The notes under the pieces: generated by a model
Told to the model about the DNA's origin: nothing
The model's input: the letters and a program-made list of their open reading frames with translations, nothing else
Databases searched by the model: none
Part shown: positions 893 through 63,833 of the stretch, piece after piece
How the letters are laid out: every line of letters starts with the position of its first letter
Position numbering within the stretch: position 1 is the stretch's first letter
Source of the DNA: Prevotella communis
GTDB taxonomy: Bacteria > Bacteroidota > Bacteroidia > Bacteroidales > Bacteroidaceae
Length of the DNA: 64,000 bases
Assembly: GCF_022024115.1 (NCBI RefSeq)
Contig: NZ_CP091792.1
Span: forward strand, 3,503,700 to 3,567,699
Reading direction: 5' to 3'
Position numbers and translations under genes: made by a program

Positions 893-1404
893 CGATTCAG
901 TTTCTTAACAACAAGTTCATTGACATCGACACCCATTGCCGGCTCGATAAACGGACAGGCATTGGCATCGGTATTGATGACAAGGGCCAGTCCCTGCTCA
1001 CGGGCAATCGTAGCAATGGCTTCATTCAGATGAATACGAAGAGGTGCCATCAGCTGGGCCTCTGTATCCTTCATCTCCTGAACAGACTGCTGTTTAAAGG
1101 CAACATTCTTCTGGAGCATCTCCTGCAGCTCCGTCTGGCGCTTCAAGAGGATGGTACGTGGAAAATCCTTCTGTCCGTCGAGGAAGTCCTCATACTTACG
1201 GTTGAACTCGTCCTCCACACGCTGCATCTCAGCATTAAAGGCACTGCGCAGGGAGTCCATACGCATCTGTACGGTGGCATATTCCTTCATTGACTTCAAC
1301 GCCAGGTCATAACTCAGATAACCAAACTTCAACGCTGGCGCATTGTCCTGTGCCTGTGCTGCCATGGCGATACAGGCAAATATCACTAAGAGAATTTTTT
1401 TCAT
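889..1404 (-). CDS. OmpH/Skp family periplasmic chaperone (paralog 1)
   Basis: This 171-residue protein has a Sec signal peptide (MKKILLVIFACIAMAAQAQ), a conserved-looking start of the mature part (KFGYLSYDLALKSM) and a long charged helical stretch (about residues 45-125) typical of the Skp/OmpH coiled-coil tentacles. Skp holds unfolded outer-membrane proteins in the periplasm on their way to BamA. It is the first gene of a two-gene unit with murI. It is more divergent than the two paralogs at 4410 and 4992 (it starts with YLSYDLALKSM where they have HVNTQEIV and LVDMDYIF). Family placement is by fold pattern and context. Confidence 0.85.
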   Translation of the reverse strand: MKKILLVIFACIAMAAQAQDNAPALKFGYLSYDLALKSMKEYATVQMRMDSLRSAFNAEMQRVEDEFNRKYEDFLDGQKDFPRTILLKRQTELQEMLQKNVAFKQQSVQEMKDTEAQLMAPLRIHLNEAIATIAREQGLALVINTDANACPFIEPAMGVDVNELVVKKLNR

Positions 1405-1436
1405 ACCTTATTATAAACAGTCTAATGATTCAGCCG

Positions 1437-54727: not shown

Positions 54728-57455
54728 CAATGTGGCAGAGAGCTTCAGCAACAACCTGATAGTAGAGGATCGCTACCGCATGATTCTCGACGGTCTGCAG
54801 GTGACGCTGCTTATCACATTATGTGCCGCCGTGCTGGGTACGATACTGGGCGGACTGGTGTGCTGGATGCGCATGAGCCGCCGCCGATGGCTGCAGCAAG
54901 TGGCACGGGTGTATATCGACTTGATGCGGGGCACGCCGGTGCTGGTGCTGCTCATGCTGATGTACTATGTGGTGATGGCACCAGTGGATGCTACCGGCAT
55001 CGTGGTGGCCATCGTCACCTTCGCCATGAACACTGCGGCCTACATCAGCGAGATGCTGCGGACCACCATCCAAGGCATCGACCGCGGACAGACGGAGGCG
55101 GGCCTGGCCTTGGGCTTCACCCCGAGACAGACGTTCCTGAAGATTGTGCTGCCACAGGTGGTCCGTGCGGTGATGCCCGTCTATCAGGGTGAGATTATCA
55201 GTCTGCTGAAGGGTACGAGCATCGTAGGCTACATTGCCGTGGCCGACATGACGCGCGCCTCGGACCTGATACGCTCGCGCACGTTCGATGCCTTCTTCCC
55301 CCTCATCGTGACGGCCGTTATCTATTTCGTTATGGCATGGCTCATCGGAATGCTGCTCCAGTCACTGGTGCAGCGTCGGCACACGAAGGCCATCGTGGCC
55401 GCCCTGATGCTGACGCTGTTTGGTCTGGCAGGCTACGTGCCAACAATAGTTAATGACGGGGAAAACGTCACCCAAACGGGCGACCAGAAGGATATCCCCC
55501 CCGTATTCAAGGCCCTATCGGGCAAGCGCGTGGCCGTCATCATCGGCAGTGTCCAGGACATTGCCGTCACCGACATGGTTCCCGATGCCGACATCCTGCG
55601 CTTGACCACGCAGACCGATATGCTGGCCGCCTTGGAGAACGGCAAGGTGGATGTGGCGGGCAGCGAGAGCCTGACGCTGGTATTCAGCAAGGAAATTGCT
55701 GCCAAGGTGGACTCTGTAAACGCAGGGATGCAACCAGTTCCGATAGCAGCCTGCTTCCGTTTAGACAATACCGAGTTGCAGCAGGACTTCAACAGTTTCC
55801 TGGCCGACATCCGCCGCGACGGCACCTACCAGCAGTTGTACGACCGCTGGCAGCAGGCCGAAGACCCCTCGACTATGGACATCCCCCAGCCGCGCGGCAC
55901 GGGGCGCACCCTGCGCGTGGCCACCTATCCCACCATGCCGCCGTTCAACTTCATCAGCCAGGGGAGACCATCGGGCTTAGAGCCTGCCCTGCTGACGGAA
56001 TGGGCCAACCGGAGGAACTGGAAAGTGGAGTATCTCGTGATGGACTTCGCCGCACAGATGCCTGCCGTACAGGCGGGCAAGGCCGACCTAGCCATGGGAG
56101 CCATCAGCATCACCGAGGAGCGGCAGAAACAGGTGCTCTTCTCCGACGGCTATTTCGATTCGCACATCTTGTTCATCACGCGCAAGGGCGAGGCTGGGAT
56201 ACTCACCAGTCCGTCGCAGCCGTCGGCTGCAGACAATAACGGCAGCCTCATTACTGAGCAAAGCTCGCCTACCCGCCTTTGGCCGTGGGCTGTGGCGCTT
56301 ATTATTATAATAGGTGGTGGCGCCTGGTTTGTCCGCCGGCGCAGGAATGCTTTCACAAACGGGCAAACCACCAATACCTCCAACGACCGGCAGGAGCCTA
56401 TCATCAGCATCGCGCACCTGAAGAAGAGCTACGGCAGCCTTGACGTGCTGCACGACATCACCGTAGATATCCGCCAGGGCGAGGTCATCTCCATCATCGG
56501 CCCCTCGGGCACGGGCAAGAGCACACTCCTGCGTGCTCTCAACCTGCTCGACCCGCCCACTGGCGGCAGCATCGTCGTCGATGGCGAGGACATCCTTGCT
56601 CGGGACTATCCCGCAGACCGCCTGCGCCAGAAGATGGGCATGGTGTTCCAGTCATTCAACCTCTTCGAGCATAAGACGGTGCTGGAGAACGTCATCTTCG
56701 CGCCCTGCCAGTTGCGTCGTATGCCAGAGGAAGAGGCACGCAGGGAGGGACTGGCATTGCTGCGCAAGGTGGGACTGGCCGAGAAGGCCGACGTCTATCC
56801 GTCGAGCCTCTCCGGCGGACAGAAGCAGCGTGTGGCCATCGCCCGCGCTCTGGCCATGAAGCCCGACGTCATCCTCTTCGACGAACCCACCAGCGCCCTC
56901 GACCCGACGATGGTGGGCGAGGTGCTCAGCGTCATCCGCCAGTTGGCCAAGGAGGGCATGACGATGCTCATCGTCACCCACGAGATGAAGTTTGCCCATG
57001 ATGTAAGCACCCGTATCTTCTTCATGTACGACGGCTATATCCATGAGGACGGCTCGCCCCGGCAGATCTTCGAGTCGCCCGTCCACAGCGCCACCAAGGC
57101 CTTCATACAGCGCATCCGCAAGGAGGTGTTTGAGATTGACGGCCCTGACTTCGACTTCCTCGGCATGCACTCAGTTGTCAGTGCCTTCTGCCACAAGTAC
57201 GGCATCCCTGAGAAGGAAGAGAAGGCCCAGCAGCTGATCGGCAAGATGCTCGACGGCGCGATGGCACCCTACCGCCCCATCACCGTGCGAATCACGCACA
57301 GCGAGCAGTCGCTCGTCACGGCCCTCGACTTCATGGTGGAGAAAATGACTGCCACGCCGCTGAACGATGCCCATCGCAGCGAACTCTCCGGGCAGTGCCG
57401 CCAGGTTATAGAGGAAGAGACCAAGCGCGGCTTCCGTGTGAAACTGATTATATAA
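54714..57455 (+). CDS. Single-polypeptide amino-acid ABC importer (permease, binding domain, ATPase)
   Basis: This 913-residue protein fuses three modules. A HisM/GlnP-type permease (about 25-220) has the EAA loop GQTEAGLALGFTPRQTFLKI. Periplasmic binding-protein segments (265-382 and 398-492) follow. A second membrane helix (523-541) leads to an ABC ATPase with Walker A GPSGTGKST (596-604), signature LSGGQKQR (699-706), Walker B VILFDEP and the H-loop His in VTHEM. About 100 extra C-terminal residues (810-913) match nothing I know. The binding segments appear in swapped lobe order. A TTG start four codons upstream is possible. The gene is markedly GC-rich. Confidence 0.9.
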   Translation: MDMFSNVAESFSNNLIVEDRYRMILDGLQVTLLITLCAAVLGTILGGLVCWMRMSRRRWLQQVARVYIDLMRGTPVLVLLMLMYYVVMAPVDATGIVVAIVTFAMNTAAYISEMLRTTIQGIDRGQTEAGLALGFTPRQTFLKIVLPQVVRAVMPVYQGEIISLLKGTSIVGYIAVADMTRASDLIRSRTFDAFFPLIVTAVIYFVMAWLIGMLLQSLVQRRHTKAIVAALMLTLFGLAGYVPTIVNDGENVTQTGDQKDIPPVFKALSGKRVAVIIGSVQDIAVTDMVPDADILRLTTQTDMLAALENGKVDVAGSESLTLVFSKEIAAKVDSVNAGMQPVPIAACFRLDNTELQQDFNSFLADIRRDGTYQQLYDRWQQAEDPSTMDIPQPRGTGRTLRVATYPTMPPFNFISQGRPSGLEPALLTEWANRRNWKVEYLVMDFAAQMPAVQAGKADLAMGAISITEERQKQVLFSDGYFDSHILFITRKGEAGILTSPSQPSAADNNGSLITEQSSPTRLWPWAVALIIIIGGGAWFVRRRRNAFTNGQTTNTSNDRQEPIISIAHLKKSYGSLDVLHDITVDIRQGEVISIIGPSGTGKSTLLRALNLLDPPTGGSIVVDGEDILARDYPADRLRQKMGMVFQSFNLFEHKTVLENVIFAPCQLRRMPEEEARREGLALLRKVGLAEKADVYPSSLSGGQKQRVAIARALAMKPDVILFDEPTSALDPTMVGEVLSVIRQLAKEGMTMLIVTHEMKFAHDVSTRIFFMYDGYIHEDGSPRQIFESPVHSATKAFIQRIRKEVFEIDGPDFDFLGMHSVVSAFCHKYGIPEKEEKAQQLIGKMLDGAMAPYRPITVRITHSEQSLVTALDFMVEKMTATPLNDAHRSELSGQCRQVIEEETKRGFRVKLII

Positions 57456-57460
57456 GACAA

Positions 57461-58186
57461 ATGATGTTTAAAGGACTGAGCGGCAACGCACTGAAGGTCA
57501 TCGCCATCGTCGCCATGACGATCGACCACCTGGCATGGGTGGGCATCGAGACCTATGAGCAGGCAGAGACGCCGACGCAGATATTCCTGCACTGCATCGG
57601 ACGGCTGACGGCCCCGATGATGATATTCTTCGTGGCCGAGGGCTATCACCACACGCACGACTTCCGCCGCTACCTACGCCGTCTGCTCATGCTGGCCGTG
57701 GTAAGCCACTTCGCCTTCTGCTATTTCAACATGTCGGGCTTCAACCCGCTCGGCAACCTGCTCTTCAATGCCACGAGCATCGCCTGGCCGCTGCTCTGGG
57801 GGCTGATACTGCTGAAAGTATGGGACATGGAGCGACTTGCCCGATGGCAGAAGGTCGGTGTTACGTTGGTGGCCTGCCTGCTCACCTGCACCTCCGACTG
57901 GAGTTGTGCCGCCCCGCTGGCCATACTCATGATAGGCCGGAACCGGGGCTGCTTCCACAAGCAGATGCTCTGGATGATGGCCATCATCTCGCTCTACGCC
58001 GTCGCCTTCTTCATATTCCACAGTCCCACCTACGGCATGGTCCACCTGGCCTGCTGGCTGGCAGTACCACTGCTGGCGATGTACAACGGCCAGCGAGGAC
58101 GGCTGAAGTGGCTCGGCAAGTTCTTCTACTATTACTATCCCGCCCACATGGCGGTAATAGGCCTGCTGGCCCGTTGCTTCCAATAA
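57461..58186 (+). CDS. TraX family membrane protein
   Basis: This 241-residue protein has seven to eight hydrophobic helices and the TraX pattern: LKVIAIVAMTIDHLAWVG, IGRLTAPMMIFFVAEGYHHT, RRLLMLAVVSHFAFCYF and a C-terminal FFYYYYPAHMAVIGLL. TraX acetylates F-pilin in plasmids; chromosomal relatives are membrane acyltransferase-like proteins of unknown target. It starts 5 bases after the importer stop and shares its high GC, so the two form one unit. Confidence 0.88.
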   Translation: MMFKGLSGNALKVIAIVAMTIDHLAWVGIETYEQAETPTQIFLHCIGRLTAPMMIFFVAEGYHHTHDFRRYLRRLLMLAVVSHFAFCYFNMSGFNPLGNLLFNATSIAWPLLWGLILLKVWDMERLARWQKVGVTLVACLLTCTSDWSCAAPLAILMIGRNRGCFHKQMLWMMAIISLYAVAFFIFHSPTYGMVHLACWLAVPLLAMYNGQRGRLKWLGKFFYYYYPAHMAVIGLLARCFQ

Positions 58187-58967: not shown

Positions 58968-59279
58968 CTATAAAACGGTGAGCGAGATACGCTTACCCAA
59001 TCCTGCAAAAATACGGAATAAGGTAGATAGCTGGATATCAGCATGACCGTTTTCTATCTTTGAGATATAGCTCTTCTTTGTGCCAATCTTTTCTGCCAAC
59101 TGCTCTTGAGTAAGACCAGCCAAACGACGTTGCTCTTTTAGACACTCTGCCAAACAGAATGTCTCAGCCTCAGCTTCAAACTTCTCACGAGTTTCAGTGC
59201 CACGCTCACCATACTCGGCATTTAACAACTCCTCGAAACTTGTACTCTCCAGAATAGCATTTTTCTTCTTTGTTTCCAT
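58968..59279 (-). CDS. XRE-family antitoxin-like regulator (HigA type), no toxin partner seen
   Basis: This 103-residue protein has an acidic N-terminal helix (FEELLNAEYGERGTETREKF) and a C-terminal helix-turn-helix (about 46-98: LKEQRRLAGLTQEQLAEKIG, KSYISKIENGHADIQLSTLF). This is the layout of HigA/XRE antitoxins that follow a HigB/RelE toxin. The 115 bases upstream hold no toxin ORF, and the downstream neighbour is the broken gene, so it is either an orphan or pairs with something unrecognised. It may bind the structured intergenic region 59331-59392. Confidence 0.88.
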   Translation of the reverse strand: METKKKNAILESTSFEELLNAEYGERGTETREKFEAEAETFCLAECLKEQRRLAGLTQEQLAEKIGTKKSYISKIENGHADIQLSTLFRIFAGLGKRISLTVL

Positions 59280-59394: not shown

Positions 59395-60294
59395 TTATTC
59401 ATTATTTCCCAAGAACGATATACGCTTCAACGGGAGCATATTCTTGTCATCATCGGTCATTTTGTCGTAGTATTCCTGCCACATCTCGATAAACTCATCA
59501 CCATCTATCAGTCGTACGAACTTATCACTTCCAGATGCTGCGTTTCTAGCATCAGCAGAGTAACTGCCACTTGTCACAAACAAAGCAATATCTCCTGCCT
59601 TCAATACACCCGATAGCGCACGCACATCAGCAGCACCAATAGACGTGTCTGGCTTATGCTTCACCTGTACCTTGATTCTTGGAGTTTGAGCACCGAGAGG
59701 ATCCAAGTAGGCTATAATGTCAATACCTCCATCTTTGCCCTTTGGCGCCACAAACGGTGTGTAGTATTTCATAGCTCGAAGCAGAGCTGCAACCATATCC
59801 TGAAATTCGTATGGACTCTTTGAGACGATATACTGCCTGATGCCAGCACGAGCATCCGACTCCAGCAGGTCGAGATTCATGGCATTATCTTTCTCTGCTG
59901 TCTCGTCATTCGGCTCCTCTTCGATGCTTTCCTCCTTAGGATTCAGTCTGCGCCACTCATGATAGGCAGCATTGGCAATATTCATCACCTCTTCAGGCTT
60001 CTTTTTCAACACAGCCTCACCCTCTGGTGTCAGATACCAGTTGCCATTCTTCTTCACGATAAAGCCAGCCTTCTGATAGTCGATGGAGTAGAACTGGAAG
60101 CTATTCGTCCAGCGGATGTATTTCATCTTTCCTGCTGGTTCCTTTTCCCATTCCGTCAATTCGACGTTATCATTGACAAAAGGATAGAGTTCTTTTGCGG
60201 GCATACTCCCGCCTCGCCGACTCATTTCCTTCATCACAGCATACAATGTCTTGGTTGCGCAGGCTTTGGTCCTGCTGAATTGTTCCTTTGCCAT
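59395..60294 (-). CDS. mrr: Mrr-like restriction endonuclease
   Basis: This 299-residue protein has an N-terminal winged-helix Mrr_N domain (about 10-100; YPFVNDNVELTEWE, YLTPEGEAVL), an acidic linker (120-140) and a C-terminal PD-(D/E)XK-type Mrr catalytic domain. That domain includes Glu163 in YEFQDMVAALL, Asp192 in KDGGIDIIAY and Gln210-Lys212 in KVQVKHK, then GDIALFVTSGSYSADARNAA. Mrr enzymes cut modified DNA, typically with methylated adenine or cytosine. Its neighbour two genes upstream is an adenine methyltransferase, so it must tolerate the host modification. Confidence 0.9.
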   Translation of the reverse strand: MAKEQFSRTKACATKTLYAVMKEMSRRGGSMPAKELYPFVNDNVELTEWEKEPAGKMKYIRWTNSFQFYSIDYQKAGFIVKKNGNWYLTPEGEAVLKKKPEEVMNIANAAYHEWRRLNPKEESIEEEPNDETAEKDNAMNLDLLESDARAGIRQYIVSKSPYEFQDMVAALLRAMKYYTPFVAPKGKDGGIDIIAYLDPLGAQTPRIKVQVKHKPDTSIGAADVRALSGVLKAGDIALFVTSGSYSADARNAASGSDKFVRLIDGDEFIEMWQEYYDKMTDDDKNMLPLKRISFLGNNE

Positions 60295-60354: not shown

Positions 60355-61152
60355 TTATTTCAAAGATCTATATTGAAATCTTCCGTAATTATTGTATTCT
60401 TCTATTGCATCATATTCGTACAAGTCCTCCTTTTGAACCATGTGAAATACAATCTCATTCTTTTTATATATAATTGAACGATAATATCTACTACCTATCA
60501 TCATTGGACTTTTATCCACTCGTATATTATCTACATACAATCTATTTCTAGCAGTCTTCCATGATGCTAATTTGTAATCATAAGTATAGGGTATGATAAA
60601 CTCAATAGTGTGTTCTGTTGTGTACGGAGTAAGAGAATAGTTTCCCTCAATAGTTTCATATTTTTTAGGGATTGCCACTTCTTTAACATTCGTCTCAGGA
60701 ACGACCAAAACCCATTTAGAATAAGGAGGAATAGACATTGTTACACTACTTTCATTTGTTTGTACTGAATTTACAGCATCTTGCACATTATTGAATGTGG
60801 TAATTTTTCCTGTTCTTACATCCTTAAACAAATCATTTGTATACCCATCGTACAAAACGAAACTTTTCGACTTATCAATGATAAGACTATTATTGTTCCT
60901 GTTTTCGATTTCAAAAATCATACGATGCATATCATCTAAATAGTATTTTATATTGAAGGATTCATAAAAAGCCGTCAAAGTAGTCCTATCACATTTTGCA
61001 GCCTTATCCACATTTTCTATTCCATATTCATAATGATTACACGTAACATTCACCGGTGGCAGGGGCTTCGCTGGTGCTGGAATAAATGTCTTAGTACTGC
61101 ACGAACAGGTAAAAGCTACAATTATCAACAGAAATAACAGATTCTTTTTCAT
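60355..61152 (-). CDS. Lipoprotein of unknown function within the restriction gene cluster
   Basis: This 265-residue protein has a signal and lipobox IVAFTCSC (Cys16 or Cys18), then a Pro-rich stretch (FIPAPAKPLPP) and a beta-rich domain (FEIENRNNNSLIIDKSKSFV, YSKWVLVVPETNVKEVAIP). It is AT-rich compared with its neighbours. I recognise no family. It sits between the DUF262-HNH gene and mrr on the same strand with gaps of 39 and 60 bases. Whether it belongs to the defence function is open. Confidence 0.75.
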   Translation of the reverse strand: MKKNLLFLLIIVAFTCSCSTKTFIPAPAKPLPPVNVTCNHYEYGIENVDKAAKCDRTTLTAFYESFNIKYYLDDMHRMIFEIENRNNNSLIIDKSKSFVLYDGYTNDLFKDVRTGKITTFNNVQDAVNSVQTNESSVTMSIPPYSKWVLVVPETNVKEVAIPKKYETIEGNYSLTPYTTEHTIEFIIPYTYDYKLASWKTARNRLYVDNIRVDKSPMMIGSRYYRSIIYKKNEIVFHMVQKEDLYEYDAIEEYNNYGRFQYRSLK

Positions 61153-61191: not shown

Positions 61192-62355
61192 CTATCTATT
61201 TCCTTTTGCTCTATTATGCGTTTTGCAAAGCATCTGGCAGTTCTCTATAGTGGTGGCACCACCTTTACTCCAAGCGGACACGTGGTCTGCGTCCATTTCT
61301 GAGAGTTTCCAGATGCGAGTCTTGGTGGCTTCGTGACCAATGGCGCAATAAGGGCAGTTTGATATTCCTTTCATTTCTGCATCATCAGTCTGAAGTTTAT
61401 ATACCTGACGCTTGATCTTTTCATCGAAGACACGTACATTCAGAAGCTTTGTGTCCTGCTCACCTCCAAGCACATATTCAAAGATGCCACTCTTGTTCTC
61501 CACTTGTGGGTCATCCAGCAGTTCTGCTACACGTTCGTCCACCTTTTGCGGGTCGTATGGCTGCTTATGGTAGGTTTCATAGAGTCGGCCCCATTCCAAC
61601 CCCTTCATTTTATCGTATGGTGTTGGGAAAACGCTGTTCACCCAACCAAGGACGGCATTAAAATAGGTTTTAAGCTCAGTGATATTATCATCGCGACGAT
61701 GTTGTTTCATATAGTCGCTGATATTGCCCTTGCTCACCCAATCAAGAGCCCTCTCCAAGAAATCCTGGCGATTAGCTGTACCATTAATGAAATGACTCCA
61801 CATCTGAATATGGGCATTCTGAGAATTACTGAACTCTTCCTTGGCTTTTGTCACAAAAGGTCCACTGAAGACAGCATTGAGCAGTTCCTGGGGTTTCAAA
61901 GGAACGCCCGCAATATTGATGGTCCTAAACCATTCCTTTATTTCTGATTCCGTACCCTCACAGATATAGATAAGCAACTTGGTCTTTAAGATCTTCTCAC
62001 GTTTATCTGTAGCAATGCTATTGATGTCTTGAGGAATACCGCTTTCATCAATAATGCTCAATACACCTTCTACGAAACGACCCAACGAAGTGATACGCTG
62101 TTGACCATCTAGCACCTCAAACTTATCGTCACCCACCTTATTGAAATATATCAGACCAATGGGGTAACCTTTCAGCACAGAGTCAATCACGGCTACGTCT
62201 TTTTTTCCATCGGCATAAATGTAGTTGCGCTGATACTCAGGCTGGATAGTCAGCTTGCCAGACAGACCATAAAGACCTTTGCCCTCCAACTCGTTATAGT
62301 GGAATCCTTTGCAGATGTCCTCTACTGTAATGTCCGTTCGTAGTTCAGTATTCAT
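61192..62355 (-). CDS. DUF262 protein with C-terminal HNH nuclease
   Basis: This 387-residue protein has a DUF262 (ParB/sulfiredoxin-like) domain with QPEYQRNYIY (38-47) and the nucleotide-binding motif VLDGQQRITS (DGQQR 83-87), a helical middle, and an HNH domain at the end (about 335-387): CPYCA, DADHVSAWSKGGATT, LCKTHNRAKGNR. DUF262-HNH nucleases are known from GmrSD, BrxU and SspE-like defence systems that use NTP to cut modified or unmodified phage DNA. It is separated by 2 bases from the methyltransferase stop, so the two are surely coexpressed. Confidence 0.93.
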   Translation of the reverse strand: MNTELRTDITVEDICKGFHYNELEGKGLYGLSGKLTIQPEYQRNYIYADGKKDVAVIDSVLKGYPIGLIYFNKVGDDKFEVLDGQQRITSLGRFVEGVLSIIDESGIPQDINSIATDKREKILKTKLLIYICEGTESEIKEWFRTINIAGVPLKPQELLNAVFSGPFVTKAKEEFSNSQNAHIQMWSHFINGTANRQDFLERALDWVSKGNISDYMKQHRRDDNITELKTYFNAVLGWVNSVFPTPYDKMKGLEWGRLYETYHKQPYDPQKVDERVAELLDDPQVENKSGIFEYVLGGEQDTKLLNVRVFDEKIKRQVYKLQTDDAEMKGISNCPYCAIGHEATKTRIWKLSEMDADHVSAWSKGGATTIENCQMLCKTHNRAKGNR

Positions 62356-62357
62356 AG

Positions 62358-63497
62358 TTATTGTTTTTTACGGATGAGTATTCTGGCGTATGGCTTTACG
62401 GGATAGCCATCTTCCATGTAGTATAATTGTCCTTTGCGAAGGCTGGGATTCATCTTCTTGTATTCAGGTGGAAAAGGCTTTAATCCTAACTCCTTGCCTG
62501 AGTCGCCTTCAGCTATTCCTATTATCTCAAATTGCTCTGGACAGTATTTATCAAGAAAAGACTTTGGTACGCCCATAATGCCATCATAATCAGAAGGAAT
62601 TGCATCCGTATAAGGAATCTCTATAGCATCATAATTGTCGTAGTGAATATAATCTTGCCTTCCTTTGATTTCTTTATGCCGACTAAACTTAAGATTCTCA
62701 GAAGCAGACATTAATGGGATCGGTTGATGACGACGACCATGCTCAAGATTAGTAAACCAACAAGAGTTTCCTAACCTTGTATAATTTCCGACATACCCCA
62801 TTCGTTCTGCTTTTGCTTTATCGCTATCAGAAACTATAGAACCTTCAGGAACAGCAAATACCATATCATTTCCATTACCCGTAGCACCAAGCCAAATCTG
62901 ATTGTCTTTAATTTGTGGAAATACCTCTTTATATGTTACAGCATTCATATTTCCAATAATCAAGAACTTCTTGTTCGCGTCCATAATCCATGCCAAGAAC
63001 TCCCGAAATAACGAGAACGGTGGATTAGTCACGATTATATCCGCTTCGTCTCTCAGTTTGCAGACCTCTCTACTACGAAAGTCACCATCACCTTCAAGAT
63101 AAGTCCACTCAATATCCTGATAATCTATGCGGCCATCACCCGTTTTGTCTCTTTCCAACACAAAGATTTTTCCATGCGTCTGAGTCTTTGCCGCATCGAA
63201 TTTAGGATCATCAGCCTCGAAAAGTGATGGCTGATAACCATACTTATACTTCTTTGATTCTGGCGCGTAACTGGTAGAAATGAGTTTTTTCAGTCCAAGA
63301 GTCTGGAATTTCTGCGCAAAGAACTTAGTGAAGTTGCTCCATTCTGGGTCGTCACAAGGCAAAAGTACCGTCTTTCCACGAAACACGTCCTTGTCATACT
63401 CCAGATAGGCATTCACCTCCACCTCAATATCATGATACTGCGTATAAAACTCATCATTCTTCGCAGTTTTAGCGTTTGATAGGTTCTGATTAGCCAT
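62358..63497 (-). CDS. EcoRI-family adenine-specific DNA methyltransferase
   Basis: This 379-residue protein matches EcoRI-type methyltransferases: NAKTAKNDEFYTQYHDIEVE near the N-terminus, VLLPCDDPEWSNF, the catalytic motif IVTNPPFSLF (NPPF 158-161) and a C-terminal FEIIGIAEGDSGKE. Enzymes of this family methylate an adenine in GAATTC. No R.EcoRI-type endonuclease follows; instead a DUF262-HNH nuclease gene follows after 2 bases. The specificity here is inferred from family and needs testing. The start lies in a region with several inverted repeats. Confidence 0.93.
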   Translation of the reverse strand: MANQNLSNAKTAKNDEFYTQYHDIEVEVNAYLEYDKDVFRGKTVLLPCDDPEWSNFTKFFAQKFQTLGLKKLISTSYAPESKKYKYGYQPSLFEADDPKFDAAKTQTHGKIFVLERDKTGDGRIDYQDIEWTYLEGDGDFRSREVCKLRDEADIIVTNPPFSLFREFLAWIMDANKKFLIIGNMNAVTYKEVFPQIKDNQIWLGATGNGNDMVFAVPEGSIVSDSDKAKAERMGYVGNYTRLGNSCWFTNLEHGRRHQPIPLMSASENLKFSRHKEIKGRQDYIHYDNYDAIEIPYTDAIPSDYDGIMGVPKSFLDKYCPEQFEIIGIAEGDSGKELGLKPFPPEYKKMNPSLRKGQLYYMEDGYPVKPYARILIRKKQ

Positions 63498-63519
63498 CTA
63501 TGCGTTTTAAGTGCACTAC

Positions 63520-63716
63520 TGACTTATCGGGCTTGTAGATAGACAAAACTACGAGGCTTCAGGACATAGAAAAAGCGTGAACCGCCTTATCTACATCTTG
63601 AGGCCGTGAGAATTGCCCATTCGTACCGATAAGTCATGTCCACGCCATACAGCGCAGACACTAGTGACCATCTTTGGTACGAATTATCTCAGAAATTTCT
63701 CACGTTTCAAGATGTA
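63520..63716 (-). promoter_or_regulatory. Structured leader with competing inverted repeats upstream of the methyltransferase gene
   Basis: Arm 63592-63626 pairs imperfectly with 63677-63716 (matched blocks TACATCTTGA, CGTGAGAA, ATTCGTAC). TGTAGATA at 63534-63541 pairs with TATCTACA at 63588-63595, overlapping and competing with the first arm. TGACTTATCGG at 63520-63530, 23 bases upstream of the start codon, is exactly complementary to CCGATAAGTCA at 63626-63636 in the loop of the long hairpin. This is the geometry of a switching or pseudoknotted leader RNA. Confidence 0.6.
63544..63551 (-). promoter_or_regulatory. Possible proximal -7 box of the methyltransferase gene
   Basis: The minus-strand TAGTTTTG matches TAnnTTTG, 46 bases upstream of the ATG. 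No -33 box was seen. If used, the transcript would lack most of the structured leader. Confidence 0.35.
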
Positions 63717-63802
63717 CCGAATAATCAGCTAATGCTGTTATTATTTTACCCTCAAAAATCATACCAGCACCTCCTCCGAGGCTTCGTGCCGATACTTGAT
63801 TG

Positions 63803-63833
63803 CAAAGATACGAATAAGCAAGGACAAAACAAA
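63803..63833 (-). promoter_or_regulatory. Distal promoter of the methyltransferase operon
   Basis: The minus-strand TATCTTTG at 63803-63810 (-7) and TTTG at 63830-63833 (-33) are 19 bases apart. A transcript from here would carry a leader of about 300 bases holding all the inverted repeats. The 503 bases from 63498 to the window end contain no convincing gene apart from the ORF opening at 63925. Confidence 0.55.

Follow-up and report, generated by a model that had tools for sequence, protein, structure and literature searches.

An EcoRI-family methylase paired with a DUF262-HNH protein in Prevotella communis, and the family of structured leader RNAs to which its upstream region belongs

Which nuclease accompanies an EcoRI-family methyltransferase that has no R.EcoRI beside it, and how might such a gene pair be controlled? 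Here, we address this question at a locus of Prevotella communis (assembly GCF_022024115.1, contig NZ_CP091792.1, positions 3,503,700 to 3,567,699), in a stretch of 64,000 nucleotides, hereafter the window, that forms the final 64 kb of a 3.57-Mb single-contig genome. The locus carries a gene for an EcoRI-family DNA adenine methyltransferase (M) followed by a gene for a DUF262-HNH protein (R). On the reading that we consider the more probable one, M and R constitute a two-gene restriction-modification (RM) system in which R replaces R.EcoRI, and the operon is read through a shared regulatory leader. The unexpected part of the locus is the leader RNA family, not the gene pair.

The gene pair and its exchange of nucleases

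An earlier note on this DNA, made from the sequence alone, had described two same-strand genes, an EcoRI-type methylase with an NPPF motif and a protein with DGQQR DUF262 and HNH motifs, and we confirm this description. The two open reading frames (ORFs) lie on the same strand with M upstream and 2 bases between them (Table 1). M matches the EcoRI_methylase family PF13651 over residues 5-378, nearly its full length (Pfam, E value 7.4e-127), with NPPF at residues 158-161, and R matches PF03235 (GmrSD_N/DUF262; E 2.1e-21) and PF01844 (HNH; E 7.9e-9). The note's wording of genes “fused in operon” holds for adjacency on one strand and is loose as to fusion, the ORFs being separate. Across 46 sequences, DGQQR (residues 83-87), C334, C337, D357, H358, N372, and C377 of R are invariant, and to judge from the sequences these are the residues expected for catalysis. 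In PADLOC, residues 3-378 of M match the MTase_II model PDLC03297 (E 7.2e-89) and residues 9-386 of R match the REase_II model PDLC03418 (E 2.9e-92), where the type II label is an annotation and no test of a type II mechanism. The type II trait of separate, adjacent methylase and nuclease genes is present, with the nuclease activity of R presumed.

Table 1. Features of the M-R locus, in positions of the window
Feature	Position	Strand	Basis
M: EcoRI-family DNA adenine methyltransferase, 379 aa	62358-63497	-	ORF; PF13651; PADLOC; NPPF motif
R: DUF262 (ParB/Srx-like)-HNH protein, presumed endonuclease, 387 aa	61192-62355	-	ORF; PF03235 and PF01844; PADLOC
Structured 5' leader of the M-R operon	63498-63800	-	Folding; homologous copies elsewhere
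Leader core, four nested helices P1-P4	63586-63724	-	Alignment; covariance model R1
GATAAGTC near the start codon	63521-63528	-	Inverted repeat I3; possible pseudoknot partner of joining strand 63626-63636
TATCTTTG, Bacteroidetes-type -7 promoter element TAnnTTTG	63803-63810	-	Sequence; motif upstream of copies

The predicted structures reach a mean predicted local distance difference test (pLDDT) score of 90.4 for M and 87.8 for R. The predicted fold of R weakly matches ParB/Srx, BrxU, and SspE, the latter two being its best VIA matches, and a Foldseek search with the M model returned weak, mixed matches only, some of them methyltransferases. No PDB sequence match was found for M, and an NCBIfam scan gave nothing for either protein. 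A single match of R to PDB sequences, to the repeats of a chain named lysozyme, was judged to be due to chance. With the DUF262-DUF1524 proteins GmrSD, BrxU, and SspE, R shares a DUF262 domain with DGQQR and a C-terminal HNH-type nuclease, but it carries a PF01844 HNH domain instead of DUF1524 and has a dedicated methylase partner. DUF1524 (PF07510) was not found in R at E values up to 0.01, PF01844 and a sub-threshold PF14279 being reported. R is also shorter, with 387 residues, whereas the BrxU and SspE chains ranked first have 560-580.

Pairing of M with R is far above chance and widespread across several phyla. At least 574 relatives of M were confirmed, and the best 80 were kept for locus inspection; by record title they belong to Bacteroidota, Actinomycetota, Chloroflexota, Pseudomonadota, Verrucomicrobiota, Bacillota, and others, many of the loci being metagenome bins with possibly misassigned contigs. 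R lies downstream on the same strand in 71 of these 80 loci, with gaps in the set mostly of -11 to +17 bases; of the nine loci lacking it, eight have 274 bases or fewer before the contig stops, and the ninth (L035) shows a true lack over 5 kb. A separate inspection of 60 genomes of relatives found PF13651 in 12, at 16 places, 14 of which have R directly downstream. Since the best 80 loci were picked by likeness to M, we additionally ran the profile of the whole family against 296 Bacteroidota genomes, which yielded 29 rows, or 26 places once split rows were merged. Contig-end cuts (G329:C2, G329:C140, G275:C118) and degenerate fragments (G317:C111, G266:C54) were excluded, and 21 places, including one partial gene (G329:C145), were judged: 17 have R downstream, 2 have R.EcoRI upstream (G168 and G342, the latter gene cut by the contig end), and 2 have neither (G274:C69, G346:C31). 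In the reverse direction, R as query at E 1e-20 found 18 places in 13 of the 296 genomes, one with an internal stop, and a PF13651 gene adjoins all 18, a count that includes both copies of the own genome and two places seen only in part. Distances among M and among R proteins are correlated (r 0.84 for 154 pairs from 149 loci; permutation maximum 0.19), with shared descent not controlled. Homologs of the two genes, for which the earlier note had proposed a search across Bacteroidota and which it allowed might rarely be adjacent, are thus found side by side in most cases.

A further M-R pair, divergent from the first, occurs in the own genome at 2673204-2675298, with M 34% and R 29% identical to the window copies. 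Variants of the arrangement were also seen among the loci. Extra genes stand between M and R in L020 (8547-10302), L039 (3765-4763, by eye), L031 (9136-9876), and L074 (9465-10052), the kinds inserted being a YhcG/DUF1016 nuclease, a Fic protein, and an ORF6N protein. Two tandem methylase genes are followed by one R in L045 (8001-10260), and the orphan methylase of L035 (4775-5902) is close to the M family.

In L012, L017, G168, and G342, members of the same methylase family have R.EcoRI (PF02963) as their neighbour. In L012 and L017 the upstream gene matches R.EcoRI in Pfam, and in L012 also in the PDB (E 4.4e-139). Within a tree of 118 methylases, built by a quick method and containing at least one partner-label error (L175, labelled solo, yet R was found there), three R.EcoRI-paired methylases nest among DUF262-paired ones, with at least two changes of partner. 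On the strength of the pairing counts, the R.EcoRI loci, and the tree, PF13651 methylases in these samples usually have DUF262-HNH as their partner and only exceptionally R.EcoRI, which upholds the proposal that a DUF262-HNH protein stands in for the classical endonuclease. The window pair resembles the EcoRI type II system (M.EcoRI PF13651, R.EcoRI PF02963) in methylase family and in having two adjacent genes. It differs in its nuclease, R.EcoRI being a PD-(D/E)XK enzyme, and in gene order, since M comes first here whereas the four EcoRI loci have R first. PF02963 has no match in the R of the window or anywhere in the own genome (G000).

In a viral collection, 56 of 80 methylase loci carry R, whole or partial. 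A further six show no R but run into a contig end after at most 367 bases, L145 has an R.EcoRI-like gene, and 17, among them the near-copies L125/L127 and L160/L161, have at least 1.8 kb downstream with no R match at E 0.001. Several of these 17 adjoin phage-like genes, as judged by eye. Such methylases fit, and do not prove, a protective DNA mark that phages copy.

A structured leader RNA upstream of M and of other genes

The 303-nucleotide leader of the M-R operon folds with a minimum free energy of -101.5 kcal/mol (z -5.1), and none of 100 shuffles is as low. Further copies were recovered from the own genome and its relatives, some rows being the promoter stretch only, and 11 longer copies including that of the window were aligned by MAFFT, in an alignment not fitted to structure. 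In these 11 copies, 86.1% of P1-P4 cells are paired, compared to 73.0 ± 1.5% after shuffling and 29-49% when the helices are slid by 1-3 columns; the slid controls lean towards P1-P4, since the structure was drawn from the same sequences. Two-sided changes occur in 55 cells versus 21.2 in shuffled alignments, and covariation is 0.453 versus 0.224 ± 0.021, with none of 500 shuffles as high. P3 is poorly aligned (61% paired). When 78 copies are fitted to the model, 96.6% of cells are paired and covariation is 0.853, values biased by the fitting. The leader is a covarying structured RNA. The window core scores 150.3 bits with covariance model R1, whose training set includes the window copy, and Rfam release 15 has no match for that copy at the gathering score or at E values up to 5. 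A pseudoknot between CTTATC in the joining strand and GATAAG near the start codon is at most hinted at: the mean complementary run is 6.35, versus 5.91 ± 0.10 with downstream parts swapped, in 54 copies (21 of 75, lacking the joining strand, being excluded).

Model R1 was used to scan genomes of the genus and order (E 1e-3 with stricter filters). The leader is present in 79 of 120 genus genomes, with up to 10 copies each, and in 53 of 198 order genomes (45 of 151 genera), with up to 15. At least five copies occur in the own genome. Two of them precede the M-R pairs (the copy before the second pair lying at L002 3726-3865), and the others stand before genes for a type I HsdM (L252) and a PLD-helicase (L256) and before one called type III Mod-like by its cluster (L333). 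The 95 methylase loci gave 17 leader matches at E 0.001, of which 16 lie directly upstream of M on the same strand (L014 and L023, with the same coordinates and score, are probably one locus) and one, in L072, lies elsewhere. Methylase loci mostly have no leader match, many being outside Bacteroidales or having little upstream DNA. Of the 16 methylase places found among the relatives, 7 have the leader (the window, L002, L005, L006, L010, L014, and L016). At E 0.001, the 80 loci of the viral collection gave no leader match.

To classify genes downstream of the leader, representatives were scanned with Pfam and PADLOC and the genes were grouped into single-linkage blastp clusters, most members being judged by likeness to a scanned gene. 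The genus scan yielded at least 150 leader places: 30 were turned into loci, 11 near contig ends were dropped by eye, and 109 were kept, from which 12 on already-seen contigs were removed. Forty of the remaining 97 were drawn at random and 39 fetched, with G359:C3 replaced by an own-genome place added by hand. A judgeable ORF follows in 37 of the 39, and in 21 cases it is RM or defence-like, comprising 10 members of a PLD/SNF2-type helicase cluster, 4 type IIG, 2 type II M, 2 type III Mod, 1 HsdM, 1 HSDR_N (Pfam only), and 1 ZorA. As a control, 60 random own-genome proteins, taken from a list of 209, were scanned together and matched 16 PADLOC families at 1e-20, one member each. We read these matches as about four proteins (AbiEi, AbiU, one methylase, and one type II nuclease), because only one protein has a DPPY-type motif, with a strict upper bound of 13. 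The comparison of 21/37 with 4/60 gives a p value of 6.5e-8, and with 13/60 one of 8.6e-4, leader sample and control having been judged by different rules and drawn from different genomes.

Stronger copies are more uniform in what they precede. Among the 30 best-per-genome loci, 29 are judgeable and 28 are RM or defence-like, L280 being unclear. At a threshold of 75 bits, set after the data had been seen, 54 copies lie at or above it, 52 are judgeable, and 50 precede RM or defence-like genes (exceptions L257 and L280), in a class favoured by the training copies that fall into it. Below it, 23 of 24 copies are judgeable, with 7 RM or defence-like genes and 16 that mostly encode exported or unknown proteins. 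For L255 (the same as L272) and L245, of the helicase cluster type, the defence-like call comes from Pfam domains with weak or partial PADLOC matches. The weaker copies L294, L305, L314, L316, L330, and L332 precede a blastp cluster of exported-looking proteins, whose sole scanned member (L294) is of leucine-rich repeat (LRR)/BspA type, and perhaps represent a second RNA subfamily.

We advance only tentatively, as a real but not yet the likelier possibility, that this family is a common control element of defence in Bacteroidales, one signal setting unrelated systems. Types I, II, IIG, and III restriction, PLD-helicase systems, and a Zorya gene would then fall under it, with at least five such operons in the own genome, both M-R pairs among them.

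One divergent order-level copy (L347) is followed, between leader core and gene, by a DUF805 RNA (RF03081, Rfam type Cis-reg) at 1368-1436 (-). This RNA was absent from the 19 other loci searched together with L347, from 20 further leader loci at E values up to 1, and from the window copy at E values up to 5. The main texts of PMC8040213 and PMC2864571 hold no word starting with “restriction”, nor “methyltransferase” in the first or “methylase” in the second.

Mode of action, target sequence, and rival readings

Pairs of this kind have been noticed before. The sections of PMC9025767 (2022) available to us propose, as a possible novel RM system, an EcoRI_methylase homologue on S. indolifex pDSM14862_g with an HNH-bearing neighbour. 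This neighbour gene is annotated as a DUF262 protein and overlaps the methylase gene by 4 bases, and the methylase is 42% identical to M. From the corresponding sections of PMC5608340 (2017), P. intermedia ATCC 25611 has the EcoRI-like methylase M.Pin25611FORF1345P followed 71 bases downstream by a nuclease gene of 1104 bases; the geometry of L010 (genome G017), with a 71-base gap, a 1104-base DUF262-HNH R, and an M frame drawn longer, suggests that it is this same locus. The earlier note knew no named system of this composition and itself counted a match to a described one against its reading. As the pair already matches PADLOC models, PMC9025767, and, by geometry, PMC5608340, that interpretation was too strong on novelty, and M-R is, as far as sequences go, a widespread, previously noticed candidate RM system. 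Elsewhere, the part of PMC4619093 consulted describes DUF262 neighbourhoods without mention of the pair, its table of enriched domains beginning with type I RM elements. The consulted parts of PMC12707154, PMC4081073, PMC7785942, PMC8565338, and PMC9252829 hold nothing on the pair, and terms for it are absent from those of PMC10333322.

In the two-gene system that we favour, M would methylate adenine in a target that is probably not GAATTC. R, predicted to consist of a ParB/Srx-type nucleotide-binding domain, a helical linker, and an HNH nuclease, would cut DNA in which this target is unmethylated, thus taking the place of R.EcoRI in the classical system. Use of nucleoside triphosphates, restriction, and licensing by methylation, all proposed in the earlier note, are at most suggested by sequence motifs and by the weak fold match to ParB/Srx, BrxU, and SspE. 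At a promoter some 310 bases ahead of M, whose TAnnTTTG element we take to be the Bacteroidetes-type -7 consensus, transcription of the operon would begin and run through the folded leader, which most likely sets the amount of transcription or translation of the operon.

Several observations weigh against this account. Literature searches turned up no activity of any member of the pair. GAATTC is not methylated in S. indolifex according to the sections of PMC9025767 consulted, and those of PMC5608340 report that the Pin25611FORF1345P pair was predicted to recognize GAATTC, found it unmethylated, and list the system as “Inactive”, a status given because this methylation was lacking; some M-R pairs may therefore be silent. 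In 444 kb of the own genome, GAATTC is not depleted (74 found versus 74.6 expected). Concerning the leader, 16 of the 37 judgeable copies in the random sample precede genes without an RM or defence match (among them LRR/BspA-type, lipoprotein-like, acyltransferase, and DUF4419 genes), a sulfatase gene follows the strong copy L257, and no leader match was obtained at 9 of the 16 methylase places found among relatives. Finally, R shares its N-terminal domain with the modification-dependent BrxU and SspE, which would argue for the opposite logic. One alternative, unlikely in our view, has R switched on by methylated host DNA, in the manner of SspE and phosphorothioate, with M setting a self mark upon which R nicks or cuts unmarked phage DNA.

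It is improbable that M-R serves chiefly to stabilize plasmids or islands as a selfish module, with phage restriction as a by-product or absent. In its favour, 98 plasmid records have a methylase match (E 1e-5) and 50 a nuclease match (E 1e-20), and occurrence in the genus is sporadic (11 of the 36 genomes classed as the own genome or as belonging to its genus). However, a stability role does not exclude restriction, type II systems being able to serve both, and the window copy lies two genes from an Mrr-like gene. We give similarly little credence to the leader being a DNA element, such as a mobile repeat or a folded recombination site, that stands before genes incidentally and is no regulatory RNA. 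Its many copies per genome before unrelated genes would suit such an element, but in 59 of 67 copies the distance from the core onward to the start codon of the next same-strand ORF, in unrelated genes, is 60-125 bases (80-106 bases in 42), 55 of 74 copies have TAnnTTTG at 150 to 31 bases before the core (6% after mononucleotide shuffling), and two-sided pair changes are many. Least plausible is that R acts on GAATTC as an isoschizomer of EcoRI, though unrelated in fold, and that the methylase retained EcoRI specificity when nucleases were exchanged: the common methylase family, the nesting of R.EcoRI-paired methylases, and the prediction for P. intermedia speak for it, but the unmethylated and undepleted GAATTC sites, the unassigned motif GGCATC, found in the S. 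indolifex strain alone among the strains of its study (PMC9025767, sections consulted), and the divergence of the pair methylases speak against it.

Returning to the two-gene system with a target of its own, the lack of GAATTC methylation in S. indolifex and P. intermedia makes the EcoRI name no guide to specificity; GAATTC is not supported for either published pair, neither of which is the window pair. Methylases of the pair diverge down to about one-third identity, which suggests several targets. GGCATC gives no depletion signal in the same 444 kb (531 found versus 541 expected). In the own-genome sample (L225-L243 and the window), GTCGAC is the most depleted palindrome, at 0.30 of expectation (28 versus 92.5), with no evident link to M-R, and CTTAAG is depleted to 0.39; both are a possible footprint of another restriction system.

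“EcoRI methylase” genes in our Bacteroidota sample mostly belong to the DUF262-HNH system, and the two published pairs, judging by the consulted sections of their reports, have another target than GAATTC, or none. Given this partner and the published methylomes, annotations into which GAATTC has been carried over are doubtful. Should the leader act as a regulator, it would offer a handle on how restriction systems, many of them horizontally acquired, are controlled without self-harm, and defence operons could be found by their leader. If it proves a common control element, unrelated immune systems in one cell could be set by one signal.

Genes next to the pair

The second gene downstream of R, at 59395-60294 (-), encodes the Mrr-like restriction endonuclease (PF04471 and PF14338; PADLOC PDC-S02 candidates). 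Between it and R lies a gene for a 265-amino-acid protein with a lipoprotein-like N terminus and no family match (60355-61152, -). An HTH_3 regulator at 58968-59279 (-) shows weak likeness to HipB-type antitoxins, under the NCBIfam cutoffs, and a TraX-like protein is encoded at 57395-58186 (+).

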